64,000 nucleotides of DNA, from NCBI RefSeq assembly GCF_000186865.1, contig NW_008705574.1, positions 10,282-74,281 on the forward strand. The letters are read 5' to 3'. The DNA comes from Aureococcus anophagefferens (lineage: Eukaryota; Sar; Pelagophyceae; Pelagomonadales; Pelagomonadaceae). Positions 1-40,753 of the stretch are shown one piece after another. The notes below the pieces were generated by a model, which was given only the letters and a program-made list of their open reading frames with translations, searched no databases and was not told the DNA's origin. A program made the translations under genes and the position numbers. Every line of letters begins with the position of its first letter. Position 1 is the stretch's first letter.

Positions 1-1497
1 ACGCGCGCCGTCGCGCCGTCGACGTCGACGCGTGACCGGTCGCGCTCGTAGCGGCGGAGCCCGCCGTCGAGGAACGCGAGCGCCGCGGCCTTGGCGGCGG
101 CCTCGCCGGCGGCGCCGTGGAAGGCGAGGATGCCCGCGCCCCACGTCCGCGCGAGGCCGAGGTCGCCGACGGCGCCCGCGTCGACCCCGGTGTCCGCGAG
201 CGCGACGGTCTTCGGCGCTAAGCGGGGCTTCGCCGGGTCGCCCGTCGCGCGGCAGGCGCGCAAGAAAGGGCATGAGCGTGCCCCAGTGGCCGCCCTGGAA
301 GCCCGTCGGCATGGCCACGTCCTCGGGCGCGTAGAGCAGCGAGGCGCTCGTCGCGGGCGTCTCGAGCGAGACCTTCGCCGCCAGCGCGTCGACGCGCGCG
401 CGCGCGGCGCCGTGGGCCCGGTTGCAGCAGACCGCCGTCGCCCCCACCTCCGCGGCGAGCGCCGCGGCGCCGTCGGCCCAGCGCTCGGACCGGCGCAGCA
501 CGAGCGTCGCGCCGTAGCTCGCCTTGAGCTCCGCGGCGAGCGCTTCGAGCGCCGCGGCGAGGTAGACGCGCGCCGCCGGGCCCACGCCGTCGTCGTCCGC
601 CGCCACGAAGCCGAAGACGCAGGCCGCGCCGGACTCCGCCGCGAGGCAGAGCATCGGGTTGTCGCGCAGCCGGAGGTCCGTGGCCCGGAAGAGCGCGAGC
701 GTTCGCGGCGCGCCGGCCGCCGTCGCCGGGAAGAGCGCGTCGACGGCGTCGGCGTCGGCGGCCGTGCGGACGCCCGGCGCTTCCACGAGCGCGCCGACGT
801 CCCGCGCGCCGTAGACCTCCAGGAGCCGCCGCGTCGCGGCCTCGGCGCCCTCCGGGCCCGAGAGGTAGTCCTCGCCCAGCAGCACGCCGTTCCAGGGCCG
901 GAACTTCTGCTGCGCGATGAGCTTCTTCGTCGGCAGAAAGACGGAGCCGACGACGCGCACGTCGGGGTACTCACGCCGCAGCCACGCGAGCGAGTCGTCG
1001 AGCTGCGCCGCGTCGCTGCCGAACTGGAGCCAGACCGACTGGACGAGACCCGTCGCGAGCTTCGCCGCGAGCCGGCGCCGCTCCTCCGCGCCCGCGTCGC
1101 CGGCCAGGTACGGGTTGAACGCCACGCCGACGCGGACGCCGCGCGTGGTGGAGACCTTCCCGAGAAACGTCGCGGCGTCGAGGCCCGGCTTCGCGTTCGA
1201 GCCGGACACGAGCAGCACCTCGGCGCTCTTGCCCGCGAGCGCGCTCAGGAGCCGGCCGAAGCGCGCGACGGCGCCGTCCCGCGGGTCCTTGCCCTTGCAG
1301 TTGTACTTGATGGAAAAGTGCGCGCAGACGTCCGAGGCGCCGGCGTCGAGCGCCGCGCTTGTCCACCGCGCGACGTCGTCGCCCTTGTCCTTGTTGACGA
1401 TGTTGTAGGACGTGTAGCCGCGCGACGCGAGGAAGGCGACGCGCTCGCGCAGCTCGGCGTCGGACTTGAAGAAGAGCTCGACGCGCGGTGTAGCCAT
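1..1497 (-). CDS. MTHFR-like / DNA photolyase-cryptochrome fusion protein (partial, one frame break)
   Basis: Read from ATG at 1497 leftward and off the window edge. Residues 1 to about 235 look like a methylenetetrahydrofolate-reductase-type TIM barrel (FFKSDAEL start, GVAFNPYL, SVWLQFGSD and VVGSVFLPTKKL in the MTHFR order). From about residue 262 a photolyase/cryptochrome antenna-domain start is plain: LALFRATDLRLRDNPML, then LLYAPEDV, and later GEAAAKAAALAFLDGGLRRY, the usual lead-in to the FAD-binding half. The frame shifts by one base in the CCCTTTCTTG stretch (plus strand 265-270): before it the protein reads HWGTLMPF, after it LRACRATGDPAKP, and both parts match the family. One extra base in the assembly is the simplest cause. 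The FAD-binding core lies outside the window, so repair versus light sensing cannot be told. The MTHFR assignment is less certain than the photolyase one. Confidence 0.72.
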   Translation of the reverse strand, partial: MATPRVELFFKSDAELRERVAFLASRGYTSYNIVNKDKGDDVARWTSAALDAGASDVCAHFSIKYNCKGKDPRDGAVARFGRLLSALAGKSAEVLLVSGSNAKPGLDAATFLGKVSTTRGVRVGVAFNPYLAGDAGAEERRRLAAKLATGLVQSVWLQFGSDAAQLDDSLAWLRREYPDVRVVGSVFLPTKKLIAQQKFRPWNGVLLGEDYLSGPEGAEAATRRLLEVYGARDVGALVEAPGVRTAADADAVDALFPATAAGAPRTLALFRATDLRLRDNPMLCLAAESGAACVFGFVAADDDGVGPAARVYLAAALEALAAELKASYGATLVLRRSERWADGAAALAAEVGATAVCCNRAHGAARARVDALAAKVSLETPATSASLLYAPEDVAMPTGFQGGHWGTLMPFLARLPRDGRPGEAPLSAEDRRARGHRGRRGRRRRPRPRADVGRGHPRLPRRRRRGRRQGRGARVPRRRAPPLRARPVTRRRRRRDGAR

Positions 1498-1848
1498 GAG
1501 CAGCGGCGACGGTTGCGAGCGGAGCGCAGCGCTGCGGAGCGGCGCGTGCTGCGAGCGGAGCGCCACGCTGCGGAGCGCGCTGCTGCTGCCCGATGCTACA
1601 AACGCTCCGCAGCGCGGCGCCAGGAGCGCGATGACGAGCTGCAGCAGCGCCGTCGTGCAGGTGTGCTGCGTGGCGACGCAGAGAGCCTCGAGAGCTCGAG
1701 CTGCAGCAGCGTCGTGCAACGCGCTGCGTGGTGAGTGCGGAAGTCGAGCTGCGCTGGTGGTCTGCGGGTCGAGCTGCGTCAACGTTGCGGCAGCACAGGT
1801 GCAACCTGGCATAAAAATGTGTAAAATTGAAGTTAAAAATCGCGCCCT
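1498..1848. other. gene-free spacer upstream of the photolyase fusion
   Basis: About 350 bp between two genes on the minus strand. It holds imperfect repeats of a CTGCGGAGCG-like unit (about 1510-1620) and an AT-rich patch near 1810-1840. No convincing coding sequence or RNA gene is seen. Confidence 0.5.
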
Positions 1849-3477
1849 CTACCACACCTCGAGGATCTCGACGTCGAAGACCAGGGCGCAGTGGGGCGGG
1901 ACCTTGTCCGGCACGCCCCGCTCCGCGTAGGCCGCGTGGGGCGCGACGGCGATCGTCGCCTTCTCGCCGACGCGCATGGTCCGCGTCGCCTCGCGCCAGC
2001 CCCGCGCGACGCCGCTCCGCGTGATGTGGAAGTCGAAGGCCTTGTCCTTGTCCGTCGACGAGTCCATCTTCTGGCCGTCCGCGAGGTAGCCGTCGTAGTG
2101 GACGCGGACCATGGCCTCGTCGTCGGGCGTCGGGCCGCGGCCCTCGCGGAGCACGGTCTTCGCGAAGGTCCGGGGCCCCTCGCTCGCGCCGCCCTTGTCC
2201 GCGAAGAGGTCCGGCTGGGGCGCCGGGGCCTGGCGCGGGTTCGCCGGCGGGCACGCCGCCGGGTACGACGGCAGGTTCAGGCCCTTCAACGCGTGGCAGA
2301 AGCGCTTGTGGTCCTTCCAGTGCTTCTTCTGGCAGTCGCGCGAGCAGTACGCCACGGCCTTGCAGGAGCCGCAGGGCAACAGCTTCCTGTTCTTCGCCGC
2401 GCCCATCTTGCAGACGACGCACTGCTTCGCGAGATCCAGGATGCGCGGCTTGTGCTTGTTGCCCGGCTCGCGGTTCAGCGAATCCTTGAAGAAGTCGCTG
2501 TTCGCCGAGTTCACAAAGTTGCGCATGAGCGTGACGTTCACGTCGAGGGCCCGCGCGTAGTGCCACCAGCCCCGGGGCACGAGGATCGTCTCGCCGGGCT
2601 CGACGACGGCGACGTAGGCCTGGGCCCTGCGCGTGTGCGGGTAGACCGTCGCGTCCGGCGGCGTCGCCGGGTCGAACGCGCGCCGGAGGCCGTCGCTGCC
2701 GGAGTCGCCGATCTTCTCCTCCCACGCGTGGAGCCGTAGAAACTCCGCGTCCGACGGCGCGTAGAGCACGAACTGCTTGCGGCCGTCGACCTGGGCGAGC
2801 CAGGCGTGGGTCTGCTGGTTGTCGTAGTGGAGCCGCGTCGTCGACCCGGGAACTCCGCAGAAAACTTTCGAGTAGTTGACGACGTTGTTCGGGTTGAAGT
2901 CGTCGTCGTGCTTCAGCAGGTCCTCAACGAAGTAGGGGTAGGACCACTCCCGCAGCAGCTCGGGGAACTTGCCGAAGGGCTCCCAGGAGTTCATGTACCA
3001 CGGGTTCTGCGCCGGCTCGCGGCTGAACGACGTCTCCTCGCCGCGCGCGTACGCGGCGTACTCCGCGATGCTCACGAAGCGCGTGCGCATGGGCGGGTCG
3101 TCCCACTCCTGGAGCGGCGCCCGGTCGTTGATGGCGAGCTCCTCGGCGCCGTAGTGCTTCGCGATCCAGTCGAGCGTCCACCGCCGCGCGCCCTTGCCGA
3201 ACCAGTCCTTCTGCGCGTCCGTGAACACGACGGGCGTGCCCTCGCCGTTGAGCAGGTAGTGCTCGAGCACGTACTTGGGGTCCGCGCCGGAGATCTTCTC
3301 GATGGGCTTCGCGCCGGGGATGTCGAGCGGCTCGATGGACTTCCAGGGCACGGCCTTGGCCTTGGCCTCCACCGGCTTCTTGGGCGCAGCGGCGCCGCCC
3401 CAGGCCTTTCCACCGTTCGGGGCGCTCTGGGCCGCGCTCTCGGCCTGCGCCCACGACGCCGAGTCCCAGGCGCTCAT
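1849..3477 (-). CDS. JmjC oxygenase with MYND zinc finger and C-terminal FKBP domain
   Basis: A 542-residue protein with three domains in a row. Residues about 60-325 are a JmjC/cupin-8 2-oxoglutarate-Fe(II) dioxygenase: the iron ligands read HYD (H217, D219) and the distal His is H306 in PRGWWHYA; the preceding segment resembles the JMJD6/FIH-like hydroxylase class. Residues 353-394 are a MYND zinc finger (CVVCK, CGSC, YCSRDCQ, H..FC). Residues about 455-542 are an FKBP-type peptidyl-prolyl isomerase (VHYDGYLADG, LVFDVEILEV). Likely role: hydroxylation or demethylation of a protein substrate with MYND docking and prolyl isomerase activity. The substrate is not predictable. The reading frame is uninterrupted and ends 350 bp from the next gene. 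Confidence 0.88.
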   Translation of the reverse strand: MSAWDSASWAQAESAAQSAPNGGKAWGGAAAPKKPVEAKAKAVPWKSIEPLDIPGAKPIEKISGADPKYVLEHYLLNGEGTPVVFTDAQKDWFGKGARRWTLDWIAKHYGAEELAINDRAPLQEWDDPPMRTRFVSIAEYAAYARGEETSFSREPAQNPWYMNSWEPFGKFPELLREWSYPYFVEDLLKHDDDFNPNNVVNYSKVFCGVPGSTTRLHYDNQQTHAWLAQVDGRKQFVLYAPSDAEFLRLHAWEEKIGDSGSDGLRRAFDPATPPDATVYPHTRRAQAYVAVVEPGETILVPRGWWHYARALDVNVTLMRNFVNSANSDFFKDSLNREPGNKHKPRILDLAKQCVVCKMGAAKNRKLLPCGSCKAVAYCSRDCQKKHWKDHKRFCHALKGLNLPSYPAACPPANPRQAPAPQPDLFADKGGASEGPRTFAKTVLREGRGPTPDDEAMVRVHYDGYLADGQKMDSSTDKDKAFDFHITRSGVARGWREATRTMRVGEKATIAVAPHAAYAERGVPDKVPPHCALVFDVEILEVW

Positions 3478-3669
3478 CGCCGCGCTGCGTCGACAGCCGC
3501 GGCACTAGTCGACTTCGCCTTCCAGCCACTCGCGTTTTTATATACCACAGCCGCTTGCCCTTCAAAGGGGACCTCAACACCGCCTTACGCAGGGGCTGAG
3601 GGCGCCTGGTCTAAACCGACGGAGCCCCCCCTCGGAGTTCAAACATAGGGCGCTTATTCACACAAGCAA

Positions 3670-3709
3670 GAGCGAGCGAGCGAGCGAGCGAGCGAGCGAG
3701 CGAGCGAGA
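3670..3709. repeat. (GAGC)n tetranucleotide repeat
   Basis: About ten tandem GAGC units within the 255 bp spacer 3478-3732. No gene is seen in the spacer. Confidence 0.8.
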
Positions 3710-3732
3710 GGGAGAGGGAGGACGCGGACGCG

Positions 3733-3921
3733 TCAGGCGGCGGCGCTCGCCAGGCGGTCGCGCTCCGCGTCGAGGCGGTCGCGCTCCTCCGCGAGCTCCG
3801 CGGCGCGCCGCTCGAGGGCCGATTTTGCCGCGGCGCCGTCCGACGACGCGCCGTCGTCGTCGGACGACGACGGGGACGACGACGGGGCGCCGGCGAGGTA
3901 GTCCGCGCGAGCGAGTTTGAC
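3733..3921 (-). CDS. possible orphan terminal exon, acidic/coiled-coil tail
   Basis: The minus strand reads 62 codons of coding-like sequence ending in TGA at 3733-3735: a Ser/Asp-rich stretch (SSSPSSSDDDGASSDG) followed by a short heptad-like helix (ALERRAAELAEERDRLDAER). It is preceded by TTTTTAG at 3922-3928, a good 3' splice site with phase 0. The only gene upstream is the nitroreductase, which has its own stop at 3997. This could be an alternative last exon or the tail of a gene whose 5' part is lost. Family unknown. Confidence 0.3.
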   Translation of the reverse strand, partial: VKLARADYLAGAPSSSPSSSDDDGASSDGAAAKSALERRAAELAEERDRLDAERDRLASAAA

Positions 3922-3996
3922 CTAAAAACTGCACAGTAGCCGAAAGTGCTGATTATTTCTCAGCTTAGCCTCTTCTTTCGTCGCCGTTTCGCGCGC

Positions 3997-4675
3997 CTAG
4001 GCGAGCTTCGTGTAGCAGCCGGCGACGCCGAGCTTGCGCTTCGGCGGCGTCGCCTTCTTCTCTCCCGCGTAGCCGAACCAGACGACGGCCATCATCTTCT
4101 CGCCCTCGGGCGCGCCGACGGCCTCGAGGATCTTCTCCGGCGCGATGCCCATGGCGCCCGTCATCCACTTGCTCGCGAGGCCCTCGGCGTGGAGCGACAG
4201 CATGAAGTTCTGCACCGCGCAGCTGACCTGGCGGGCGGAACGCGGTCGCGGAAAACGCGAAGCTTCGTCGGCGAAAAAAGGTGGACGCCGCGCTACGGAC
4301 GGCGGCGTGGTCCTCGAGGCCGAGCTTCTCGTCGAGCTTGTGCTTGGACGTGAGCGTGACGACCATCATGCCCGGCACCGCGAGGCAGGCGTCCGCCTTG
4401 TCGGCGTTGAGCGCCGCGAACTTCTTGATGGTCTCGGCGCCGCACTGGTAGAAGCGCCAGGGCTCGGACAGAAAGTGGTTGGGAGCGAGGATCGCCGCCT
4501 CGAGCGCGCGGTCCACGGCGGCCTGGGGAACTTTCTTCTTGGCGTACTTGACGTGGGAGCGCCGCGTCAGGAGGATCGTGCGGCCGCTGGACTTGCCGCC
4601 AAACAAAAGAAGGGTGCCGAGCAACGCGGCGGCGGCCGAGGCGACGAGAAGCGGGAGGTCGGTGCTGAGATCCAT
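3997..4675 (-). CDS. membrane-anchored nitroreductase-family oxidoreductase
   Basis: Two exons, 4301-4675 and 3997-4227, join in phase 0 across a 73 bp GT-AG intron (4228-4300). The joined product has 201 residues. An N-terminal hydrophobic helix (LLVASAAAALLGTLLLF) is followed by the nitroreductase FMN core: RRSHVKYAKKKVP, LAPNHFLSEPWRF, then across the junction EDHAAVSCAVQNFML and the GLASKWMTG segment. The intron call is supported because unspliced reading loses the conserved A-A-x-Q-N motif. It should be an FMN- and NAD(P)H-dependent oxidoreductase; the substrate is unknown. It diverges from the rRNA methyltransferase gene with about 120 bp between start codons. Confidence 0.85.
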
Positions 4676-4797
4676 GGTCGACTAATGCAGAGCAGCAGCG
4701 TCGCGGGCGTAAGGCGGGGGATGAGCTGCACGCGCCCTGCTCTTTCAGCTCGCTGAATAGATGCTGAATTGTGAATTTGTGGCAAATTTTGCAAAGC

Positions 4798-6318
4798 ATG
4801 GTCTGCCGAGTTTTGCGGCTCTCGCTCGTCGCAACGGCAGCCTTTGCGCTGTCGACGGCGCGCCAGGATCGATGTGCAAGATTGGCCATCGACACGCTGC
4901 ACGAAATTCGGGTGGAAAACGCGGCACCGGACCGCTGCCTGGCCAAAGCGCTGCGCGCGGCGAAGGACCTCAGCGACGAGGAGCGCGGCCTCGCCGCATC
5001 CAGCGTGCTGGGCTGCGCGTCGCGGCTGAAGCGCTACGAGTGGATCCTCGGCGCGCGCGGCGTGCGCAGCGCCGACGGCGCCGACGTCGCCGCGCGCCTG
5101 CTACTCGAGCACGCCGACGAGACGGCCGCGCCGCTGCGCGACGCGCTGGCGGCGCGCGTCGGCGGCGCCGCGGCGCCGCGGAACCCGGTCCCGTGGCCCG
5201 ACGACGGCGACGACGCGCTCGCGACGCGGTCGGGCGTGCCGCTCTGGCTCGCGCGGCGCCTCCGCCGGGACTTCGGCGACGCGGCCGCCGCGGAGGTCGC
5301 GTTCAACTCGACGCTGCGCGGGCCCGTGACGCTGCGCGTCGCCGGCGGGTTCGATCTGGAAACCGTCGCGCGCCGCGTCGGCGCGGCGCGACCTCCGGAA
5401 AGTTTGGGCGCTCCGAGGGCGCTCACGCTCCCCTACGGGCGACCGCGCGGCGGCGTCTGGGCGCTGCCCGGCTGGGACGCTGGCGCCTTCGAGGTCCAGG
5501 ACGCCGGGTCGCAGGCCGTCGCCGAGGCCTGCGGCGGCGGCGGCACCGCGCTCGACTTCTGCGCGGGCAACGGCGGCAAGACCTTGGCGCTCGCGGAGCG
5601 CTTCGAAAGCGTCTGGTGCCACGACGTCGACGCGTCCCGCCTCGCGCGGCTCCGGGCGCGGGCGGCGAAGGCCGGCGTGGCGCGGCGCGTCTTCTGCAGC
5701 GACGAGGCGCCGCTCCCGGCGGGGCGAACTTTCAACGCCGTCCTCGTCGACGCGCCGTGCTCGGGCTCCGGCGTCCTGCGCCGCTTCGGCCGCACCGTCG
5801 ACTTCGCCGCCGGCGCCGGCGACGCGGACCTCGACGGCGTCCTCGACGCCCACGCCGCGCTGCGCCGCGCGCGCGACCGCGACGCCGGCGACGCGGACCT
5901 CGACGACGTCCTCGACGCGCACGCCGCGCTGCGCCGCGCGCGCGACCGCGGCGCCGGCGACGCGGACCTCGACGACGTCCTCGACGCCCACGCCGCGCTG
6001 CGCCGCGCGCGCGACCGCGTCGCCGACGCGCGGTCCGGCGAGGCGCTCGCGGAGCTCGCGGAGCTCCAGCTCGCGATCCTCCGCCGCGCGGCGGACGCGG
6101 CCGCGGACCGCCTCGTCTACGCGACGTGCTCCGTGCTCGCCGAGGAGAACGCGGCCGTCGTCCGCGCGTTCGAGGCGTCGCCGGAGTCCTGGGGCTTCGA
6201 GCCCTGGGACTTCGACGCGTCTCTCGAGGGCGCGGCCGGCCACGCGCGGACGCTCCTGCCCTCGGCGCGCGCGGACGGCTTCTTCGTCGCCCGCTGGCGA
6301 CGCGCGTCTGCTACTTAG
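4798..6318 (+). CDS. RsmB/NSUN-type rRNA (cytosine-5) methyltransferase
   Basis: The start at 4798 was chosen because it gives a hydrophobic leader (MVCRVLRLSLVATAAFALS), suggesting an organelle target. A NusB-like helical domain follows (residues about 25-130). The Rossmann methyltransferase core then shows VQDAGSQAVAEA, the SAM-binding ALDFCAGNGGKT, motif IV DAPCSGSG and motif VI YATCSVL; the two cysteines are the general-base and nucleophile cysteines of this family. Between motifs IV and VI sits a lineage-specific insert of three near-identical 22-residue units (see 5806-6020). Likely modifies cytosine in plastid or mitochondrial rRNA. The 3' end lies in a 91 bp tandem duplication shared with the convergent fibrillin gene. 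Confidence 0.88.
   Translation: MVCRVLRLSLVATAAFALSTARQDRCARLAIDTLHEIRVENAAPDRCLAKALRAAKDLSDEERGLAASSVLGCASRLKRYEWILGARGVRSADGADVAARLLLEHADETAAPLRDALAARVGGAAAPRNPVPWPDDGDDALATRSGVPLWLARRLRRDFGDAAAAEVAFNSTLRGPVTLRVAGGFDLETVARRVGAARPPESLGAPRALTLPYGRPRGGVWALPGWDAGAFEVQDAGSQAVAEACGGGGTALDFCAGNGGKTLALAERFESVWCHDVDASRLARLRARAAKAGVARRVFCSDEAPLPAGRTFNAVLVDAPCSGSGVLRRFGRTVDFAAGAGDADLDGVLDAHAALRRARDRDAGDADLDDVLDAHAALRRARDRGAGDADLDDVLDAHAALRRARDRVADARSGEALAELAELQLAILRRAADAAADRLVYATCSVLAEENAAVVRAFEASPESWGFEPWDFDASLEGAAGHARTLLPSARADGFFVARWRRASAT
5806..6020 (+). repeat. 66 bp in-frame tandem repeat inside the methyltransferase
   Basis: Three copies of a 22-codon unit translating to about AGDADLDDVLDAHAALRRAR plus two residues, differing by a few substitutions. 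The length is a multiple of three, so the frame is kept. It lies between methyltransferase motifs IV and VI, where other family members have a single short linker helix. Confidence 0.9.
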
Positions 6319-6452
6319 CCCCGCCGCTGGACGAACACGTCGCCCTCGCCCGTGCGCTGGAGCGGACGGCTTCTTCGTCGCCCGCTGGCGACGCGTGCCT
6401 TCTACTTAGCCCCGCCGCTGGACGAACACGTTGCCCTCGCCCGTGCGCTGGA
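6271..6452. repeat. 91 bp direct tandem duplication at the tail-to-tail gene junction
   Basis: Copy 1 is 6271-6361 and copy 2 is 6362-6452, differing at a handful of bases. The unit contains the last codons and stop of the methyltransferase (plus strand) and the last codons and stop of the fibrillin gene (minus strand). The methyltransferase stops in copy 1 and the fibrillin gene stops in copy 2. Confidence 0.92.
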
Positions 6453-7302
6453 CTCTAAGATCCGCGTCGAGGTAGAGCAGGTCGAAGAAGGGCACGGGCG
6501 GCTTCTTCGCCGGTCGGAAGAGGAAGAGCACGCGCGTGATGAAGGCCGCGGGCACGGGGATGAAGATCGACTTGAAGAGGCCGAGGAGCCGCTTCCGGAA
6601 GGTGACCTTCACGTAGCGGAACGTGAGCTCGAGCCGCGCGCCGCCGATGGGCCTCGCGCTGAGCCGCACCTTCAACGTCTCGACCTTGCTCGCGGGGCTC
6701 TCGAAGGCGATGATGTTCGTGATCTTGCCCCTCCTGGCCTCGACGACGTTGGACACCCGGGCGGCGCCGCGCTCCGTCTTCTCGTCGAACGTCGCGTCGG
6801 CCGCCGTCGTCCACAGGTTGTTCCACGCGCCGTCGAGCGGCGAGTCCCGCGTGCGCCACGACGCCGCGGCGGCGCCGGCGAGCGACGGCTCCGCCGCGAG
6901 CGCGTCGACGGCGGCCACGACCGTCCGCGCGGCCGCGCCGACGCGCTCCGACACGGCGTCGAAGCCCTCCGGGAAGAGGTTCCGCGGCGCGCGGCTCTTC
7001 TTGTCCAGTTCGCCGCCGGACACGCCGAAGTCGATGGGCACGTTGCCGTCCATGGCCGTCGCGGCCTTGAACGCGGCGACAGCCTGGAGCAGCGCCCGCT
7101 TCGACTGCGGCGGCGCGACGGGACCGCTCCAGGACCAGCGCTCGAAGGCCGCGGCGTTGAGCGGCTGCAGCGCTGCGCCGAGGCGCGGTCGCGGCGCAAA
7201 CGCGGTCGCGCAGGATGCCAGGGCCAGGACTAGCGCGCTCGCCATCGCAAATGCGTGGCTCGAGCTCAGCATGCGCTGGCCGGGGAAAAATAGATGAAAC
7301 AT
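6406..7302 (-). CDS. plastid lipid-associated protein (PAP/fibrillin), plastid-targeted
   Basis: Up to 298 residues. ATGs at 7302, 7272 and 7245 are all possible; the last gives a compact signal peptide MASALVLALASCATAFAP. The A-F-A-P site is the bipartite plastid-targeting motif of algae with secondary red plastids. The mature part has fibrillin hallmarks: SPLDGAWNNLWTTAADATF near the start of the beta barrel, a long hydrophobic middle, and GNVFVQRR at the C terminus, matching the family's G-N-x-F-V-x-x-R end. Likely binds lipids or quinones at thylakoids or plastoglobules. Convergent with the methyltransferase gene. Confidence 0.85.
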   Translation of the reverse strand: MFHLFFPGQRMLSSSHAFAMASALVLALASCATAFAPRPRLGAALQPLNAAAFERWSWSGPVAPPQSKRALLQAVAAFKAATAMDGNVPIDFGVSGGELDKKSRAPRNLFPEGFDAVSERVGAAARTVVAAVDALAAEPSLAGAAAASWRTRDSPLDGAWNNLWTTAADATFDEKTERGAARVSNVVEARRGKITNIIAFESPASKVETLKVRLSARPIGGARLELTFRYVKVTFRKRLLGLFKSIFIPVPAAFITRVLFLFRPAKKPPVPFFDLLYLDADLRVQRTGEGNVFVQRRG

Positions 7303-14636: not shown

Positions 14637-15500
14637 ATGGCCTTCGCGCCAGCGCCCGCGCCGCCGCCGCCGCGCCGCGAGGCCTTCGCGCCGACGCGCT
14701 ACGCGCGGCAGGCCGACGAGTTCCCGCGCCGGCTCCAGTCGACCGTCGACGGCGCCCTCGGCCGCTTCCCGCCCGTGCTCGCCGCCCGCGCGCAGCAGAC
14801 GTCCTGCGCCGCCGTGCCCGTGCCCGAGACGACGCTGGTCTTGCTCGTGGGCCTCGTCCACGGCGGCCGCTGGCGCAGCGCGTCGGAGATGCGGCGCGTG
14901 CTCGCGCGCGCCGCGCACAAGCCGGTGCCGAGCGTGCAGGACATCGGCGCGACGTTCGACGCCGTCGCCGCGGAGCTCGGCGTGTCCCGGCGCGTCAGCG
15001 CGTCGGGCACGCGCGAGTACTGCGTGCGCGACCGCGCGCACGCGTTCCGGCTCCTCTCGTTCCGCGCGAAGACGGCGCGACGAGTCGCCGGGGAGGACGC
15101 GGCGGAGGCGGCGGAGGACGCGGCGGAGGCGCCNNNNNNNNNNNNNNNNNNNNNNNNNNNNNNNNNNNNNNNNNNNNNNNNNNCGGACGTGGAGGCGTGC
15201 GCCAAGGCCGCGGCGGCCGCGAAAGCCGCCGCGGCGGCGCGCGAGCGGGCCGCCGCGGACGCCGACGCGGAGGCCGCCGCCGCCGCGCCGCCGCCGAAGA
15301 CGCCCGAGGCCATCGCCGAGGTGCCGTCGATCCGGCGGCGCCGGTCCATGTCCATCGCCGAGGACCCGTCGACCTGGGACCAGACGCCGTCCGTGCGGTC
15401 CGCGACGCCGGCGGACGCGGCCGCGAGCGCGCGGTCCACGGCGACGCGGAAGGTGTTCACGCGCCAGAAGCCGAAGGCGGCGGTGGCGCCGTGGTTCTAG
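14637..15500 (+). CDS. hypothetical protein with Ala-rich middle (contains assembly gap)
   Basis: Start at 14637 (MAFAPAPAPPPP); an in-frame ATG lies at 14562. The N-terminal 140 residues look folded (ETTLVLLVGLVHGGRWRSAS, VQDIGATFDAVAAELGVS, GTREYCVRDRAHAFRLL), possibly a small helical or winged-helix module. An Ala/Glu-rich repeat then runs into a 50-N gap. The C-terminal part has basic-serine motifs (IRRRRSMSIAEDPSTWDQTP), a likely phosphorylation site context. Family not recognised. True length across the gap is unknown. Confidence 0.55.
   Translation: MAFAPAPAPPPPRREAFAPTRYARQADEFPRRLQSTVDGALGRFPPVLAARAQQTSCAAVPVPETTLVLLVGLVHGGRWRSASEMRRVLARAAHKPVPSVQDIGATFDAVAAELGVSRRVSASGTREYCVRDRAHAFRLLSFRAKTARRVAGEDAAEAAEDAAEAXXXXXXXXXXXXXXXXXXDVEACAKAAAAAKAAAAARERAAADADAEAAAAAPPPKTPEAIAEVPSIRRRRSMSIAEDPSTWDQTPSVRSATPADAAASARSTATRKVFTRQKPKAAVAPWF
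15134..15183. other. assembly gap (50 N)
   Basis: 50 undetermined bases in an Ala-codon-rich repeat of the preceding gene. The same 50 N length occurs at the two other gaps, so it is a placeholder and not a measured size. Confidence 0.99.
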
Positions 15501-15819: not shown

Positions 15820-16356
15820 ATGCCCCGCGCGGCGCGCGGCGCGACGTATCGTGCGTCCCGCGCAGGCGCGACGCGGCGCTACCTGCTCGCGGCGCTGGCC
15901 CTCGCGGCCGTCGTCGCCGACGACGCCGCGCCGGCGAAGCCGCGGAGACCCAAGGGCGGCAAGCCCGGCGGCCGGCCCGGCAAGCCCGGCGCCGACGGCC
16001 GGCCTGGCAAGCCCGGCGGCAAGCCCGGCGGCAAGCCCGGCGCCGGCGGCAAGCCCGGCGGCCGGCCGACGTTCGAGGCGATGCTCGAGCTTTTGAAGGC
16101 CTACAAAGCGGAGACGGGCCACGTCGACGTGCCGCTGGACCACGAGGCCGACGGCCCCGCCGGCCGGCCCGTGAAGCTCGGCCGCTGGCTCATGGCCGTG
16201 CGCCGCGCGCACGAGAGCGACCGCATCAAGGACGACCGCGAGGCCGCGCTCGACGCCGTCGACGCGAAGTGGGCCGTGACGTCGCAGAAGCTCGAGGACG
16301 CGCCGCCCCGGAAGCGCGGCGGCAAGGGCAAGAAGGGGGCGCCCTCGGATGACTAG
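15820..16356 (+). CDS. secreted helicase-associated (HA) domain protein with GKPGG repeats
   Basis: Start at 15820 gives a signal-peptide-like leader (RRYLLAALALAAVVADDA); other ATGs upstream are in frame. A collagen-like or disordered stretch of Gly-Lys-Pro-Gly units follows. A single HA domain comes next (FEAMLELLKAYKAETGHVDV ... LGRWLMAVRRAHESDRI ... DAVDAKWAV). HA domains are numerous in stramenopiles, mostly of unknown function; they were first named from bacterial helicases. The C terminus is basic (KRGGKGKKG). The last codons, stop and downstream 200 bp are duplicated at 18659. Confidence 0.72.
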   Translation: MPRAARGATYRASRAGATRRYLLAALALAAVVADDAAPAKPRRPKGGKPGGRPGKPGADGRPGKPGGKPGGKPGAGGKPGGRPTFEAMLELLKAYKAETGHVDVPLDHEADGPAGRPVKLGRWLMAVRRAHESDRIKDDREAALDAVDAKWAVTSQKLEDAPPRKRGGKGKKGAPSDD

Positions 16357-16479
16357 GGTATTATCATTTTGTCCGGGAGTCATATTGCATACATGTGGGC
16401 GGCGACGGGTCCGCGGAGCGGGCCGGCGGCGGGGTGCTTCTGCGCGCCTTGTGCGAGCTAGTTGCGCCTTGTGCGCGGC

Positions 16480-18476
16480 TTATAACTTTTTGCCCTTCTT
16501 GCCCTTGCCCTTCTCCTTGCAGGGCTTTCCGTTCTTCTTCTTGCAGGGGGGCTTGTCGCCCTCCGGCCAGTCCTCGTCCGGCCCGTCCTTCGGCTTGCAG
16601 GGTTTGCCGTTCTTCTTCTCGCAGGGGGGCTTGTCGCCCTCCGGCCAGTCCTCGTCCGGCCCGTCCTTGCAGGGTTTGCCGTTCTTCTTCTTGCAGGGGG
16701 GCTTGTCGCCCCACCCGTCGCCGTCCTCGGGCCAGTCCTCGTCTTTGTCGTCCTTGGGCTTGCACTCGTCGTGCTTCCACTTGCAGCCGAGCGGGTCCTT
16801 TTTGCACGACTTCTTGCTCGTGTTTTCCTCGCACGACCCGAACGGGGGATCGTCCGGTTCGAAGGGCGCGTCCTCCGCGTCGCAGGTGCCGCAGGTGAGC
16901 TGGCACGCGTCGTAGGCCTCGCGGCCGTCGTCGCCGACGCGCGAGCACTCCTTCTCCGTGAGCTTCTTACACTTTTTGTGGTCCTTGTCGCAGACCTTCT
17001 TGAGGCGCTTCTTGATGTACTTGCAGTCCTTGGGCTTCACTTTGCCCCCGCGCCTGTGTGGATTCCAAATCTTCAACCCGACTTCAATGCGCGCGTAATC
17101 GAACGGATTGGACCACACTCTTTCGACCCCCCAAACCAGTGGTTGGAATCCACACTGCCCCCGCGCGACTTCTCGTTGCTCTGAAGCCAGTTCTTGTCGT
17201 CCTCGCACTTCCACGGGCCGTCGTCCTCGTCGCACGTGTTGCATTCGACGAAGCACGCGTCCTTGGCCGACACGCCCGTCGAGTCCTTGGCGTTCTTGCA
17301 GGCGCGCTCGAGCTTCTTGCCATCTTTCTTGCCGATCCAGTCGCAGTCCTTCGACGGGCGCATCGGGAGGTGCCACGACGTCGACGACTCGCAGCCGCCG
17401 AAGCCGCCCGTCGGCGCGGGCGTCTCCTCGATGGGCTCGTCGGGCGGGAAGGGCCCGTCGTCGACAGGCGGCACGTCGATGGGCGGCAGATCGTAGCCGT
17501 CGCCGTAGTCGTCTTCGAGGCGGCGCGACGTCCAGGAGTGCGAGAGCATGTGCTCGCCGTAGTCGCCGAACTTGTGCCAGTCGTTGGCCGTGCGGCCGTC
17601 CGAAGCACGCGCGGGCGTCTCGTCGTCGCCGCGGAGGAGCGTGGCGTCGTCGTACATGCCGCCGGCGAGGCGACCCTGATGGTATACCTCCGAGAGCATG
17701 TAGGGCCCCGTGGAGCGCAGGATGTCTAGGTCGGTGACTTCGTCCTTGTCTTCGAGGGCCTTGGCGCGGCGCACGGCCTCGTCGAGCGCATCGACGACGA
17801 GCGCGTGGCCGGCCTCGGCGCCAAAGGCGTAGTTTCCGACCTGGAAGTGCTCGAAGTCGTCGCGGGGGCGCGCGAAGTGGCGCTCCGCGAAGGCGTCGTC
17901 GGACTTCCACCACTCGAGCGGAAAGACGGCCGTCGAGTCCTCCGCGAGGGGGGCGAAGTTCTTCTTCGCGAGCACCTGCGTGGGCGCGTAGGTCATAGGT
18001 CCGTAGGTTCCGGTCGAGGCTACGTAGGCTCCAGAGGCTCGAGCCGAGGCTACGTAGCCTCGTAGGCGCCTACGTAGGCACCTATGCGACACTGGCGAGC
18101 ACGTCCTTGTCAAGGTAGAAGCCGCCGTTCTTCGCGACGACGGCGAGGCGGAACCTACGGGCCGGTGTTCCAGGGGGCGCGGCGGCGGGCAAGGCGGGAG
18201 CGCTCACATGTCCGCCCTCATGACGGGCCGCGGCGCCGCGGCGTAGACTTCGGCGAGCTCGGTGCCCGCGTACTCGCGCTCGATGAACGCGGCGGCCTCC
18301 TCGTCGGAGAAGTCCGTGATCTCGAAGTCGCCGTTGAGCTCGCGGAGGATCGCGTCGTACGTGGCCCAGTCGGCGCCTTCCTTCGGGCCGTGCGTGAGGT
18401 AGATGGACTTGGGGATGTCGGCCGCCACCGGCGCGGAGAGCGCGAGGGCGACGACGAGTTTCATTGCCTTCTGCAT
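16480..18476 (-). CDS. secreted DXD-motif glycosyltransferase with ShKT-like Cys-rich tail (paralogue A)
   Basis: Four exons: 18208-18476, 18103-18154, 17167-17975 and 16480-17053, total 1704 bp, 567 residues, in frame throughout. The signal peptide is MQKAMKLVVALALSAPVAA. Then comes a sugar-binding DXD glycosyltransferase domain of the Och1/alpha-1,4 type: IPKSIYLTHGP ... VMRADMFRLAVVAKNGGFYLD with the DKD metal site. After an acidic linker are Cys-rich ShKT-like modules (AYDACQLTCGTC). The end is three near-identical acidic/basic units (GPDEDWPEGDKPPCKKKNGK). Likely a Golgi or secreted enzyme acting on polysaccharide or glycoprotein. The paralogue at 18900 lacks all three introns and has a shorter tail. 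Confidence 0.82.
17054..17166 (-). mobile_element. introner intron, GTGTGG-terminus subfamily (short form)
   Basis: 113 bp intron in paralogue A. Inverted termini GTGTGGATTCCA / TGGAATCCACAC; ends CAG. Direct repeats GCGCGGGG flank it (identity extends to 11 bp, GCGCGGGGGCA). Splicing at GC of the left repeat gives EKSRGGKVK, exactly the pre-insertion codons; a GT donor 3 bp upstream would also stay in frame. The ATTGAAGTCGGGTTGAAGATTT stretch is shared with the element at 10452. Paralogue B has no intron here. Confidence 0.85.
17976..18102 (-). mobile_element. palindrome-rich intron with 8 bp target duplication
   Basis: 127 bp intron in paralogue A, from GTGCTCGC to CACGCAG, phase 0 (YLDKD / VLAKKN). 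The 8 bp GTGCTCGC occurs both at the intron start and at the start of the next exon. The interior is built of CTACGTAGG-like palindromes. It shares no core with the other introners. Paralogue B has one copy of the 8-mer and no insert. Confidence 0.85.
18155..18207 (-). other. 53 bp GT-AG intron absent from the paralogue
   Basis: GTGAGCG...CCCGTAG, phase 2, within the VMRADMFRLAVV block of the glycosyltransferase. The matching position in paralogue B is uninterrupted. No target duplication is seen, so its origin may differ from the two other introns of this gene. Confidence 0.75.
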
Positions 18477-18658
18477 GTTCGTCGGGGAGATTGCTGATTC
18501 GTGCACGTGCACGTTGCTGTTGTCGCGGTGTGGCGACGGTACGAGGTCGAGACGCTCGGTGAGGCTCTTTTTATTTTTCCCGGAGCTCGTGCGGAGACGA
18601 CTTTCGAGACCCCTCGCCGGGGGTCCGCTCGGACCCCACACTAAGTCCTACACTAGCT

Positions 18659-18705
18659 CGGAAGCGCGGTGGGAAGGGCAAGAAGGGGGCGCCTTCAGAT
18701 GACTA
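18659..18705 (+). pseudogene. duplicated 3' tail of the HA-domain gene
   Basis: Reads RKRGGKGKKGAPSDD then stop, the same as the C terminus encoded at 16309-16356, followed by the same downstream sequence. There is no start or upstream gene body. It marks the left breakpoint of the tandem duplication. Confidence 0.85.
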
Positions 18706-18899
18706 GGGTATTATCATTTTGTCCGGGAGTCATATTGCATACATGTGGGTGGCGGCGGGTCCGCGGAGCGGGCCGGCGCGGCGGGTACGCGGAGCGGGCC
18801 GGCGGCGGGTGCTTCTGCGCGCCTTCTGCGAGCTAGTTGCGCCTTGTGCGTGGGTGCTTCTGCGCGCCTTGTGCGAGCTAGTTGCGCCTTGTGCGTGGC

Positions 18900-20389
18900 T
18901 TAGAGCTTCTTGCCCTTCTTGCCCTTGTCTGCGCCCTTGGGCTTACACTTGTCGTTCTTCCACTTGCAGCCGAGCACATCCTTTTTGCACGAGTTCCTGC
19001 TCGTGTTGTCCTTGCACCGTGTCGTCGACCCGCCGCCGGCGGTGAAGCCTCCTTTCGCGGGCTTGCACTTGGCGTTCTTCTTCTTCCACTCGCAGCCGAG
19101 CGCGTCCTTTGTGAACGATTTCTTGCTCGTGTTGTCGGCGCACGACCCGCCGGTGAACTCTTCGGGCCCGTCCGATTCGAAGGGCGCGTCCTCCGCGTCG
19201 CAGGTGCCGCAGGTGAGCTGGCACGCGTCGTAGGCCTCGCGGCCGTCGTCGCCGACGCGCGAGCACTCCTTCTTCGTGAGTTTCTTGCATTTCTTCTCCG
19301 TGAGCTTCTTGCACTTCTTGAGGCGCTTCTTGATGTACTTGCAGGTCTTGTCTTTCCCTTTGTTGTTGTTCTGATACCAGCTCTTGTCGTCCTCGCACTT
19401 CCACGGGCCGTCGTCCTCGTCGCACGTGTATATTCGACGAAGCACGCGTCCTTGGCCTTAACGCCCATCGAGTCCTTGGTGTTCTTGCACGCGCGCTTGA
19501 GCTTCTTGCCCGTTTTCTTGCCGATCCAGTCGCAGTCCTTCGACGGGCGCTTCGGGAGGTGCCACGACGTCGACGACTCGCAGACGGGCTCTTCGTAGTA
19601 GTCGTCGGTGAGGCGGCGCGACGTCCAGGAGTGCGAGAGCATGTGCTCGCCGTAGGCGCCCAGCTTGTGCCAGTCGTTCTCTGTGCGGCCGTCGGAGGGA
19701 CGCGCGGGCGTCTCGTCGTCGCCGCGGAGGAGCGTGGCGTCGTCGTACATGCCGCCGGCGAAGCGGCCGCCGTGGTAAACCTCAGAAAGCATGTAGGGCC
19801 CCGTGGAGCGGAGCACGTCCAAGTCGGTGACTTCGTCCTTGTCTTCGAGGGCCTTGGCGCGGCGCACGGCCTCGTCGAGCGCGTCGACGACGAGAGCGTG
19901 GCCGGCCTCGGCGCCGAAGGCGTAGTTTCCGACCTGGAAGTGCTCGAAGGCGTCGCGGGGGCGCGCGAAGTGGCGCGCCGCGAAGGCGTCGTCGGATTTC
20001 CACCACTCGAGCGGAAAGACGGCGGTCGACGCCTCCGCGAGGGGGGCGAAGTTCTTCCTCGCGAGCACGTCCTTGTCGAGGTAGAAGCCGCCGTTCTTCG
20101 CGACGACGGCGAGGCGAAAGAGATCTGCTTTCATGACGGGCCGCGGCGCTGCGGCGTAGACTTCGGCGAGCTCGGTGCCGGCGTACTCGCGCTCGATGAA
20201 CGCGGCGGCCTCGTCGTCGGAGAAGTCCATGATCTCGAAGTCGCCGTTGAGCTCGCGGAGGATCGCGTCGTACGTGGCCCAGTCGGCGCCTTCCTTCGGG
20301 CCGTGCGTGAGGTAGATGGACTTGGGGATGTCGGCCGCGACCGGCGCGGAGAGCGCGAGGGCGACGACGAGTTTCATCGCCTTCTGCAT
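18900..20389 (-). CDS. DXD glycosyltransferase with ShKT-like tail (paralogue B, one frame break)
   Basis: Intronless counterpart of the gene at 16480. Signal peptide and glycosyltransferase domain are intact (VMKADLFRLAVVAKNGGFYLD, DKD). At about 19428-19433 one base is missing relative to paralogue A (GAATATACACG against GAATGCAACACG), so the frame switches within the first Cys-rich module. Beyond it the other frame continues as TCDEDDGPWKCEDDKSWYQ and on to a normal stop at 18900, with AYDACQLTCGTC and further Cys-rich modules conserved. The 1490 bp length is one base short of a multiple of three. Either a recent inactivating deletion of the tail or an assembly error. Confidence 0.78.
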
Positions 20390-20585
20390 GATCGTCGGGG
20401 AGATTGCTGATTCGTGCACGTCACGTGCACGTCGCTGTTGTCGCGGCTTGGCGACGGTACGAGGCGGAGGTGGGATCGTCGAGCGGCGCGAGCGGCGTCG
20501 GCGTCGTGTGTGTCGCCACCCCGCCAAATCCCGGACTTCGCGGACGTCGTCGTTTGTTCGAGACCCGTCGCGGGGGGGTCGGACC

Positions 20586-26942: not shown

Positions 26943-28399
26943 ATGAGCGAACCGCCGGCGCTCCCGCCCGACGCCGCCGCGCCGGCGTCGCAACCGGCGC
27001 CGCGCCGCCTCGTCGAGCGGCGCGACCGCTTCTTCCCGCCGCCGCCGCCGCCGCCGGCCCGGGCTGCCCACCAGCGCCCGGATCGGCAGCACGCGCCCGC
27101 GCCGCCCGCGCGGCCGAGCCTCTCCGGGCGGCCCTGGGGCGCCGTCGAGCTCCGCGCGGGCAAGTGGGGCGCCGAGGAGATCGCCTACGCGAACGCCGTC
27201 GCCCGCGACTTCCGGCGGGGCTCGCTCGTCGGCTGCCCGGACGGGGCCATGCTCCGGGCCCTCCTCGCGAGCCTCCTGAACTGCACCCCCATGCGCGTGA
27301 GTAAACGGTTCGCCGGCGAGGCGGCCATGGGCAAGCGCGCCTACGTCGACGACCCCGCCGCGCGCGCGGCGGGCGCCGGCGGCGGCGGCGGCGGCGGCCC
27401 GCGGCCCGCGCGGGGCCCGCGCCGATCGCGCCCGGCGCCCGCGCACGCGACCCCCCCGCAGGCGTCCCTCGCGGACCTCGAGGCCGCCTTCCACGGGAGC
27501 GTCCGCGGCTGCGGCGACCTGCGGGTGAGCCTCTACCGTCGCGCGCCGGCGCGCCCGAGGGGCTCCGCGGGGGTCCGCGGAGCGCCGCGGCGCAGGCACG
27601 AGCGGCCTGTGCACGCCCAAGGACATCCGCAGGGCGAAGCTCGAGCTCCGGTACCCCGACCTCGGCTCCGACCGGAAGCGGCGGCGCGGCGGCGACGCGC
27701 GCCTCCGACGCCCGCGCGATCCGCGCGCGCCGCCGCGACCCGCCGCCCCGCCGCTCCCGCCGCCCTGGGAGCCCGCGGCGCCGGGCCCGCCGCCGCCCTT
27801 CGCCGGCGGGTCGCCGCTCGCGGGCGAGCGCTACGTGCCGCCCGCGGANNNNNNNNNNNNNNNNNNNNNNNNNNNNNNNNNNNNNNNNNNNNNNNNNNTT
27901 CGCGCCGCCGCCCGGCTACGGCTACGCGCCGCCCTACGCCTACCGCGCGCCCGCGCACGCGCCGGCGCCGACGTGGCCGGCTTTCCGCGGCTACCGCGCG
28001 GGCGACCGCGGCGCCGCCGCCTTCGCGCCGCCGCCGCCGCCGCCCTACGACGGCCGCGCCTACGGCGGCCGCGCCTACGACGGCCGCGCCTACGACGGCC
28101 GCGCCTACGGCGGCCGCGCCTACGACGGCCGCGCCTACGGCGGCCGCGCCTACGACGGCCGCGCCTACGACGGCCGCGCCTACGGCGGCCGCGCCTACGA
28201 CGGCCGCGCCTACGACGGCCGCGCCTACGGCGGCCGCGCGGACCACCCCTACGACGACCACCACCCCTACGACGCACATCACCCCTACGACGACCGCGCG
28301 CCGCCGACGACGGTGGTGATCTCGACGCGCGCCGGAGACCCCGCGGCGGACGACGACGACGCCGACGACAGCCTCCGCCGCGTCGAGACGAGCTCCTGA
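26943..28399 (+). CDS. stramenopile-type nuclear-like protein with GRAY repeats (intron and assembly gap inside)
   Basis: Exon 1 (26943-27524) carries a conserved-looking module: WGAVELRAGKWGAEEIAYAN, DFRRGSLVGCPDGAMLRALL, LLNCTPMRVSKRFAGEAAMG. I have seen this pattern in diatom and oomycete proteins but know of no established function. A consensus donor GTGAGC is at 27525. The frame changes, and coding resumes as CTPKDIRRAKLELRYPDLGS near 27610; the acceptor is not resolved (AAG at 27620-27621 fits phase). A 50-N gap follows. The C-terminal part is a Tyr/Gly/Arg repeat (five-residue unit YDGRA/YGGRA, about 13 copies), then HPYDDHHPYD and an acidic end. Confidence 0.6.
27849..27898. other. 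assembly gap (50 N)
   Basis: 50 undetermined bases within the Pro/Gly-rich part of the preceding gene, before the tandem repeat. Confidence 0.99.
28048..28239 (+). repeat. 15 bp coding tandem repeat
   Basis: About 13 copies of a 15 bp unit (TACGACGGCCGCGCC and TACGGCGGCCGCGCC) encoding YDGRA/YGGRA in frame. The D and G versions alternate in a pattern that suggests expansion of two- and three-unit blocks. Confidence 0.93.
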
Positions 28400-38100: not shown

Positions 38101-40753
38101 GCGGCGCCGCGCGCGGCGGCCGTCGCGTCGAGGGCCGCGAGCCGCTCGAGGAAGCGCTTCGCGCGGGGCACCGTCGTGAGCCGCGCGGCGCAGCGTAAAC
38201 AGTCGCGCGCCGCGCCGTCGCCCGCGGCGCGCTCGCACTGGTCCACGGCGCCGACCCAGCGCCGCGTGTCCGCGTCGGCCTCCGCGCCGCGCCGCAGGTC
38301 CTTGACGATGGCCTCGACGGCCGCGGCCAGACCGTCGGGCGACGCGTCCGTGTCGTCGTCGGCCTCGCGTATCAGGTCCACGTCGTCCGCCGCGAGGCGC
38401 GCCTGGGCGGCGCGGGAGAAGCGCCGCGTGACGCGCGCCCAGGGGTGCGCCGCCTTGCGCTTGCTCTTCCGCTTCGCGCCGCCGGACTCCTCGTCCGACG
38501 ACTCGGCGAAGAACGCCGCGTCGCGCGTCGCGTCCAACGGCGCCCACCAGCCGTCGGCCGACGCGTCGTCCAGCAGCACCTCCAGCAGCGCGCCGTGGGC
38601 GCGCCGCAGCGGCTCCAGGGCGCCGCGCGCGCCGCCGAGCGCGCCCAGAGGCGCCGCCAAGGCCGCGCCGAAGGCCTCCAGCGGCGGCGGCGGCGCCGGC
38701 AGCTCCTCGACGGGCGTCGCGTCCTTGTCGACGCGCTTGAGGCCCAACGCCGTGCGCCGCGCGCCGATGGCGCGGAGGAGCGCGTGGATCGCGAGGACGT
38801 CGCCGACCGCGTCCCTGGGCACGCCCCGGAGCAGCGAGTCCGACGGGTCAGAGGCCTCGGGCCGCGGCGGCAGCGGCGGGTCCGGCGGCGGCTCGCCGTC
38901 CAGCAAAGCGTCGTCGACGGGGTAGCGCTCCGCCTGCTTCCGCTTCATCTCGGCCAGCGCGCGGTTCGCCGCCGCGGCGGCCAGCTCGGAGTCCTTCTCC
39001 GCGCGTCTTTGCTTCGCGTCCTCGTCGCGCTCGGCCTTGCGCGTCGCCGCGTCCTTGGAGCGCTTGTCGCGGCGCGCCTCGGCGTCGGCCTCGCGCTCCG
39101 CGCGCTTCGCCAGGGTCTCCGCCTCCTTGGCCGCCTTCTTCCGGCGCCGCTCGGAATCCGCGGCCGCGCGGCGCTCCGCGGCGGCCGTCGCGTCGCGCAG
39201 CAATTCCTCGAGGCGCTGCGTGGCCTTGACGAGGCGCTCCACCGTGCGCCGCTCGCGCTCCACCTCCTTGAGCAGGTTCTGGTGGCGCGCGACGGCGACC
39301 TGGTGCGCCTGCAACGCCGCGCACCGGACGNNNNNNNNNNNNNNNNNNNNNNNNNNNNNNNNNNNNNNNNNNNNNNNNNNTGCTTCGCCGCGGCCTCCTT
39401 CTGCCGCTGGTCCGCGAGCTTGGCGGTTAGGCGGTCCACGCGCGACTCGCCCGGCGCGGGCTTGGACCGCTCCTCGTCGTCGCCGGCGCCGCCGCCCTCG
39501 TCCTTGCGCTTCGCGTCGTCGAGGGTGTTCGCCAACGACTTGCGGAAGTTCACGGTCAGCGCCGCGAAGCGCCGCGCGTGGGCCGCGCGCCGCCGCGCCT
39601 TCTTCGTGCGGCCGAAGCCGAAGTTCGCCGGGCCCTTGGCCCCGGGGACCTTGGGCGCGCGCGCGGGCGCGGCCAACGCGAACGCGCGCGCGACCTCGGC
39701 CCGCGACCGGTAGCGCCGGCCCAGGGGGTCGAAGTAGTAGACGTCGTAGGTGCCCGCCGTGTTGCCCTCCTTGCGCACCTCGACGGTCGCCGTCCAGCCG
39801 TCGATCAAGTCCGCGGAGCCGCCGCAGGCCTCGACGTAGCGGGCCAGCGCGGCGACGCACGTGTCGCTCGCCTGGTTCGAGTTCAGCCCCTTGAGGTTCG
39901 CCCGGTCGATCTGCACGGGCGCCGGCCGGCCCGCCGACGCCCAGCGCGCCGCCGCGCGCAGCGCGTCGAGGCGGATGAGCGCGGACGTCGCGGGCAAATA
40001 CGGCGGCGGCACGTCGGGCGGCGGCAGCGGGCTGCAGGGCCGGTCCGTGCCGTCGTAGTAGAGCTGCGCCGGCGGCGTCGGCGGCAGCGCCGGCGGCGGC
40101 GGCGCGCCGGGGGTCGGGGGGAGGAGCGGCGCCGCGGCCGCGGCCGGCGGCGGCGGCGCCGGCGCCGCGGGCGCGTCGACGTCGTCGCGGACCTGCCACG
40201 GGTGGCCCCGCAGGCGCTGGCCGTCGACCTTGAGGCGCACGGCGAAGAGCTTCGCCGGCGCCGGCGCCGGCGCCGCCGGCGCGGCGCCGCCGAGGGCCGC
40301 GAGCGAGAAGCCCTGCGCCTCGCCCTGTTCGAACGGCGACCAACGGCCCTCGTCGTCGTCGCCGTCGCTCGACGGCGGCGCCGCGGGCCGGAAGGTCGCG
40401 CCGGCGAGGAGCGCCGGGTTGAAGGGGTACTGGCCGATGGCGGCGGCGGGCACGGGCCGCGCGGCCGGCCGCGGCGCGATCGGGATCGGCGCGGCGGGCG
40501 CGGCGGCGGCCGCGTAGTAGTGGGGGGGCATCTGGAGCATGCCCGCGCTCAGCTGCATGGGCGGGAGGAAGCCCCGCGGCGGCTGCTGGCCCTGGAAGAC
40601 GAACATCTGCTGCTGGAGCTGGAGCAGCTGCTGGGGCGGCAGGCCGCGGGGCCAGCCCGCGGGCACCTGGACCGGCGCGCCCCGACCCACCCCCGGGACC
40701 CCCTGAGGGTACTGGGGAGGTCCCCGGCCGTTCTGACCCCACCCGGGGTACAT
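35153..40753 (-). CDS. BAZ/WSTF-like chromatin remodelling subunit (MBD, DDT/WHIM, WSD), with gap and one frame break
   Basis: Very long protein (about 1,860 residues). N terminus: Gln/Pro-rich low complexity. Next is an MBD/TAM-like domain (DLIDGWTATVEVRKEG, YDVYYFDPLGRRYRSRAEVA), then a coiled coil across a 50-N gap. A DDT-like helix follows (AVGDVLAIHALLRAIG). A Tudor-like module comes next (ASHSDGLVAGWLDDTASDYV, ELAGDEEDLELHEV). WHIM-like helices are LSEGLPYGGLGARERVAVLK. The WSD domain ends the protein (LGSDRHRDVYWTFP, WGFYVGDDAVRRLALSLDER, GVRERDLKATLLDLLP). The order fits ISWI-partner subunits (ACF1/WSTF/Itc1). Near 35731-35736 the frame shifts by one base: DDVL continues as NSARPSRTRKSDAV only if one base is removed. 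Confidence 0.75.
39331..39380. other. assembly gap (50 N)
   Basis: 50 undetermined bases in the coiled-coil part of the chromatin gene. The reading frame differs on the two sides, so the real gap is not 50 bp modulo 3 as drawn. Confidence 0.99.

Follow-up and report, generated by a model that had tools for sequence, protein, structure and literature searches.

The stretch analysed here, hereafter the window, comprises 64,000 nucleotides of the pelagophyte Aureococcus anophagefferens (C14:10282-74281; assembly of 49.05 Mb in 86 contigs; G+C 70.8%) and contains two glycosyltransferase genes, paralogues A and B, which lie in tandem on the minus strand and give a good alignment across most of their length. 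Three extra stretches in A emerge from this alignment as introns 1–3, and B is without an intron at each of these places, in agreement with the first-pass annotation of this DNA, which had given A three introns and B none. The genes are located as follows:

16480..18476, minus strand, paralogue A, a glycosyltransferase (Gly_transf_sug, DXD) with a Cys/Lys-rich tail
18208-18476, 18103-18154, 17167-17975 and 16480-17053, minus strand, exons of paralogue A
18900..20389, minus strand, paralogue B, intron-free at all three intron sites of A

Removal of all three introns from A leaves an open frame of 567 codons up to the stop, the product of which matches the Gly_transf_sug family (PF04488; E=1.4e-8, 35.8 bits, cut-off 23). 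Premature stops appear on keeping intron 3, 2 or 1 (after 90, 113 and 407 codons, respectively), and the frame also stops early if all three are kept.

The clearest of the three differences between the paralogues is intron 2, which consists of one copy of an 8-bp repeat and a 119-bp element that we call E1:

17976-18102, minus strand, intron 2 of A (8-bp repeat copy plus 119-bp E1)
17976..18094, minus strand, E1 introner element of 119 bp, CAGTGTCG...GCGCCCACGCAG, the bulk of intron 2
18095..18102, minus strand, intron-side copy of the 8-bp target-site duplication GTGCTCGC, with the putative GT 5' splice site of intron 2
17968..17975, minus strand, exon-side copy of GTGCTCGC, directly after the element's CAG (putative 3' splice site)
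20061..20068, minus strand, empty site in B with a single GTGCTCGC, at the same codons as intron 2 of A

Read in gene orientation, A has GACAAGGAC-GTGCTCGC-(119 bp)-GTGCTCGC-GAAGAAG where B has GACAAGGAC-GTGCTCGC-GAGGAAG. The 8-bp repeat at both ends of this intron, with its single counterpart in B, had been described in the first-pass annotation, which considered that its idea would fall if the repeat disappeared on re-examination; the repeat stands. Exact 8-bp direct repeats at a spacing of 119 occur at 9 of 63,510 window positions (1.4e-4), and the one at intron 2 additionally adjoins the ends of a repeat family with copies elsewhere in the genome.

Dispersal of E1 is evident from a search of the own genome, which returned at least 60 match rows, spread over 38 candidate places, the window copy included. 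The sample studied consisted of 20 fetched places, mostly from the top of the list, together with the window copy (21 in all), and both ends were present in 20. The flanks of these 20 copies agree at 8/8 positions in nine, at 7/8 in four and at 6/8 in another four, i.e. at 6/8 or better in 17/20, with a mean match of 6.55/8 as compared to 3.0 when right flanks were permuted among copies (maximum of 2000 permutations 4.15). As scored, the right-hand repeat begins with GT or GC in 19/20 copies, and the elements end with CAG or nearly so. A 25-base pattern of the E1 3' end, allowing up to 3 mismatches, had 25 matches against 0 for the reversed control, and GT or GC is found at the 3' end in all 25; the pattern itself ends with GGY, but mismatches were tolerated there. 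The terminal inverted repeats of E1 are imperfect, and the predicted fold of its strand spans almost the full length (−56.1 kcal/mol, a value calculated without shuffle control).

Intron 1 (17054-17166) is built in a similar way from a second element, E2:

17054..17157, minus strand, E2 introner element, an internally deleted copy of 104 bp, the bulk of intron 1
17158..17166, minus strand, intron-side direct repeat GCGCGGGGG, 9 bp
17045..17053, minus strand, exon-side direct repeat GCGCGGGGG, 9 bp

E2 starts with CAGTGTGGATTCC and ends with GGAATCCACACAG, which form terminal inverted repeats. Since its length is 203 bp in 16 of the 20 copies examined (19 fetched copies, mostly from the top of the list, plus the window copy), the E2 of A is an internal deletion derivative. 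The family is abundant: with at most 3 mismatches tolerated, its terminal repeat gave 1130 matches in the genome and the reversed control 29, and an exact search for the 3' end with GT or GC behind it gave 52 against 0. Flank agreement among the 20 copies is 8/8 in 15, 7/8 in three and 6/8 in one, thus at least 6/8 in 19/20, and the mean of 7.55/8 compares with 3.3 after permutation (highest 4.7). The right-hand repeat starts with GC or GT in 17/20 copies as scored, and the remaining three (L056, L057 and L063), read by eye, start with GT, GT and GC if their orientation is reversed, which brings the totals to 13 for GC and seven for GT. As to its boundaries, intron 1 can be taken as a GC-AG intron of 113 nt or as a GT-AG intron of 116 nt (17054-17169; 566 aa), both of which keep the frame. 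The exact 3'-end patterns of E1 and E2 each had 0 matches in viral contigs. Three E2 copies (L067:1965-2167, L070:4502-4704 and L082:394-596) start with CTG and end with CAG; CAG could therefore be available in both orientations, so that an element with such ends might be spliced whichever way it had inserted.

The two genes owe their arrangement to a duplication that extends past the coding regions, as the first-pass annotation had held:

16309..16428, duplicated flank of the A unit, 95% identical to 18659-18778, holding the 3' end of a plus-strand open reading frame that ends at 16356
18659..18778, duplicated flank of the B unit, the 95% counterpart of 16309-16428

A second pair of flanks outside the coding regions (18504-18551 and 20422-20469) is 90% identical. 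Since the duplicated sequence lies outside the genes and reaches the 3' end of the neighbouring plus-strand open reading frame, the duplication took place at the DNA level.

The direction of change between the two copies was read with other paralogues of this genome (C4, C6, C20 and C5) as outgroups. The C4 paralogue, about 51–54% identical, aligns across the sites of introns 2 and 3; C6 spans both as well, with small gaps near intron 2, none of them intron-sized; C20 and C5 align across the intron-3 site. Intron 2 is absent from both other paralogues that cover its site (C4 and C6) and intron 3 from all four that cover its site (C4, C20, C5 and C6), besides B, which indicates that both were probably gained in A. 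According to the first-pass annotation, gain would be contradicted by introns at these positions in distant relatives; nothing intron-sized was found in these same-genome paralogues at either site. The intron 1 site lies outside the region aligned with the other paralogues, and gain of this intron is argued from its family and its direct repeat. A further candidate outgroup, C40, was not counted, as its first match was not reproduced by tblastn. The synonymous and nonsynonymous divergences between A and B are dS 0.175 and dN 0.032 over 260 codons. The last 54 bases of the E1 in A are identical to those of four other copies, and this identity, set beside the dS value, suggests that E1 probably inserted after the gene had been duplicated.

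These observations can be brought together in a scheme that starts with a DNA-level tandem duplication of the glycosyltransferase gene, after which two different non-autonomous DNA transposons resembling miniature inverted-repeat transposable elements (MITEs), of the kind known as introners, would have entered copy A, each duplicating about 8 bp of target. In nearly all copies the repeat starts with GT or GC, and CAG or a near variant closes the element; the target copy would therefore contribute the 5' splice site, and the element, with its terminal CAG, the 3' splice site. Excision of one target copy plus the element from the RNA would restore the original message exactly, and B would show the intron-2 site in its original, empty state. 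We regard this scheme of two transposon insertions into A after the duplication, followed by precise splicing, as highly probable. The membership of E1 and E2 in their families, the duplications, the empty site, the polarity of intron 2 and the open frame after intron removal are read directly from the DNA sequence. Introns 1 and 2 are probably removed by the splicing machinery of the cell; we infer that insertion would have been driven by a transposase, that splicing does occur, and that intron 1 would post-date the duplication. The earlier proposal of recent intron gain by insertion has good support at intron 2 and is likely at intron 1; both introns derive from dispersed families with target duplications. 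Intron 3 looks like a gain as well, but is without an insertion signature.

Work by Huff and co-workers (2016) reportedly found that introners of A. anophagefferens carry one splice site and co-opt the other from the duplicated target. Several published systems are close to what is seen in A. Introners were recorded in 175 genomes (PMC9860276; Gozashti et al. 2022), PMC10228655 credits Huff et al. 2016 with the co-option of splice sites by A. anophagefferens introners, and PMC7789003 notes that such introners bear direct repeats and terminal inverted repeats. Like these, E1 and E2 are short non-autonomous repeats. The intron length peak of about 210 bp in Pelagomonas, called characteristic of A. 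anophagefferens introners (PMC9481584), fits the 211 nt that a full-length E2 (203 bp) and an 8-bp duplication make together, whereas the E2 of A is a 104-bp deletion derivative and E1 belongs to another, rarer family, which has palindromes resembling CCTACGTAGG. In Symbiodinium microadriaticum the 5' splice site likewise comes from the target duplication (PMC9860276, Fig. 2B) and the 3' splice site from the element, but the duplications are of 4 bp instead of about 8 bp. The A/B pair is a clear new example of this known mechanism. Its value lies in having the filled and empty states of an intron about 2 kb apart, together with outside paralogues that give the polarity, which makes the birth of an intron visible with no need to infer it from a comparison of species. 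The pair further suggests that several introns can accumulate quickly in a single gene. The general mechanism of introners is established already, and the testable question that the pair raises is the origin of intron 3.

A number of points weigh against the introner scheme. The E2 repeat in the window is 9 bp long, is off the 8-bp register and scores 4/8, and B does not offer a clean empty site for intron 1, its exon being different there. Three of the 20 E1 copies are without a good duplication (L037, 4/8; L045, 2/8; L034, 1/8, the last probably mispaired by the script), and one fetched copy, L039, yielded no end pair. Introner family 4 of Aureococcus sp. shares the 8-bp target duplication and a pelagophyte host with E1 and E2, but its elements contain both the 5' and the 3' splice site and lengthen the message by 12 bp (PMC9860276, Fig. 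2F), whereas E1 and E2 would leave exactly. Among the places examined, no transposase was found with ends that match E1 or E2. Finally, the scheme leaves intron 3 unaccounted for.

Intron 3 may well have its own history, the features of which are as follows:

18155..18207, minus strand, intron 3 of A, 53 nt, GTGAGC...CCGTAG

The more probable explanation for it, which is compatible with introner insertion at the other two sites, is a separate event such as a small local insertion, mutation or repair that happened to provide splice signals. The intron is matched only by itself in the own-genome search, which scores best candidates only, no flanking repeat was seen, and it is absent from B and from all four other paralogues, so that by comparison of these sequences it looks like a gain in A that came without an insertion signature. 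A and B moreover differ at 7 of 19 bases at this site (window 20120-20140 against 18208-18226; p 0.013 by simulation). On the other side, intron 3 could be a decayed introner whose family has diverged too far for a best-candidate search. A third introner family was considered for it and is unsupported, given the self-match only and within the limits of that search. By eye, the 3' end of intron 3 resembles antisense E1 over a short stretch, a similarity judged too short to count. Also by eye, B departs from the outside paralogues at this site by G-to-A and C-to-T changes, so that the B tract looks the odder of the two, and A at intron 3 itself departs from them as well (CTC to ATG). Differences between A and B amount to 6/252 bases in the first 84 codons and 34/504 after codon 92 (p 0.0098), a pattern according to which past gene conversion between the two may have reached up to the intron 3 site. 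Tentatively, it can be envisaged that since the tandem duplication (dS about 0.18) A gained three introns by at least two routes, i.e. from two introner families and by de novo formation of a 53-nt single-copy intron 3. If so, the pair would be a rare site where an intron gain without a transposon is polarised and can be read almost base by base beside introns made by transposons.

A less favourable view of A, namely that the inserts are ordinary transposon hits that are not spliced and that A is a pseudogene, could appeal to the early stops that arise when any intron is kept, but we consider it improbable: a frame of 567 aa is open over all exons once the introns are removed, the low dN relative to dS between A and B suggests constraint, the combination of a GT/GC start and a CAG end recurs across the E1 and E2 families, and it is in B, not in A, that a frame-shifting deletion sits. 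This 1-nt deletion, near 19430, shifts the frame of B relative to A, as a result of which B may be a young pseudogene or the locus may contain an assembly error. Downstream of it, another frame of B is open to the same C-terminus. Most improbable is ancestry of the introns with loss of all three from B by recombination with reverse-transcribed mRNA, since, even though their joint absence from B is what loss mediated by complementary DNA predicts and the few differences in the first 84 codons may point to past conversion, C4 and C6 are without intron 2 and all four outside paralogues without intron 3, E1 and E2 are dispersed families with target repeats elsewhere, and, as the first-pass annotation had argued in considering loss less likely, loss from B would not generate repeats in A.

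With introner insertion as the preferred explanation for introns 1 and 2, the source of a mobilising activity is of interest. Transposons of the hAT superfamily are characterised by 8-bp target duplications and a CAGTG-like terminal motif. MITEs of hAT origin thus have the 8-bp duplications in common with E1 and E2, the 5' end CAGTG of which resembles the hAT motif, but the one intact hAT element found in the genome has unrelated ends, so that membership of E1 and E2 is not established. Profile searches with PF05699 and PF18758 gave nothing at E 0.001, and as control genomes gave none either, these searches do not establish absence. At E 1, PF14291 led to the intact element on C6, whose transposase frame runs for 1217 codons free of stops; with PF05699, a threshold of E 10 brought up this element and three further places (C1, C13 and C8). 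The hAT elements recovered are:

C6:237500-247000 (L087), intact hAT transposon of 6488 bp, positions 623-7110 of the reverse complement, with hAT at C6:240325-243507
C15 and C1 (L099:4391-4833 and L100:4379-4821), 443-bp deletion derivatives of the C6 element with perfect 8-bp duplications

The C6 transposase scores above the cut-off for zf-C17orf113 and below those for DUF4371 and Dimer_Tnp_hAT (the latter above cut-off in the genome scan), and its comparison with solved structures gave no significant match (best E 0.96). The element has perfect terminal repeats of 16 bp and an 8-bp duplication, GCGGGGGG; its ends (CGGGGTTCGACG... and CGGGGTTCG...) are different from the introner ends (CAGTGT...). 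Movement of hAT elements in this genome is thus indicated, which does not imply that E1 and E2 are moved by them. No paired CAGTG-type ends flanked by a target duplication were seen in the fragment loci L098, L101, L102 and L103. BLAST comparison with E1 and E2 gave no match for L108 (C1) and L109 (C13), where end pairs were sought only near the edges of the stretch that they share, or for L110 (C8), where this comparison was the only one made. Wide pairs of E2 ends were sought in 20 fetched stretches; the one in L066, when read through, turned out to be two separate short copies, and a pair 3392 bp apart in L070 has a 6/8 repeat, with open reading frames that by eye include no obvious transposase, a judgement made without a scan against a family library. 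The stretch shared by L108 (C1:938700-948600) and L109 (C13:595000-604900) measures 5.4 kb, includes a hAT dimerisation domain and is 99.2% identical between the two.

Two minor observations concern the window itself. Tandem repeats of 72–78 bp at 16509-16736 encode the Cys/Lys-rich tail of A and are mostly without counterpart in B, and three runs of exactly 50 N are present in the window, at 15134-15183, 27849-27898 and 39331-39380.

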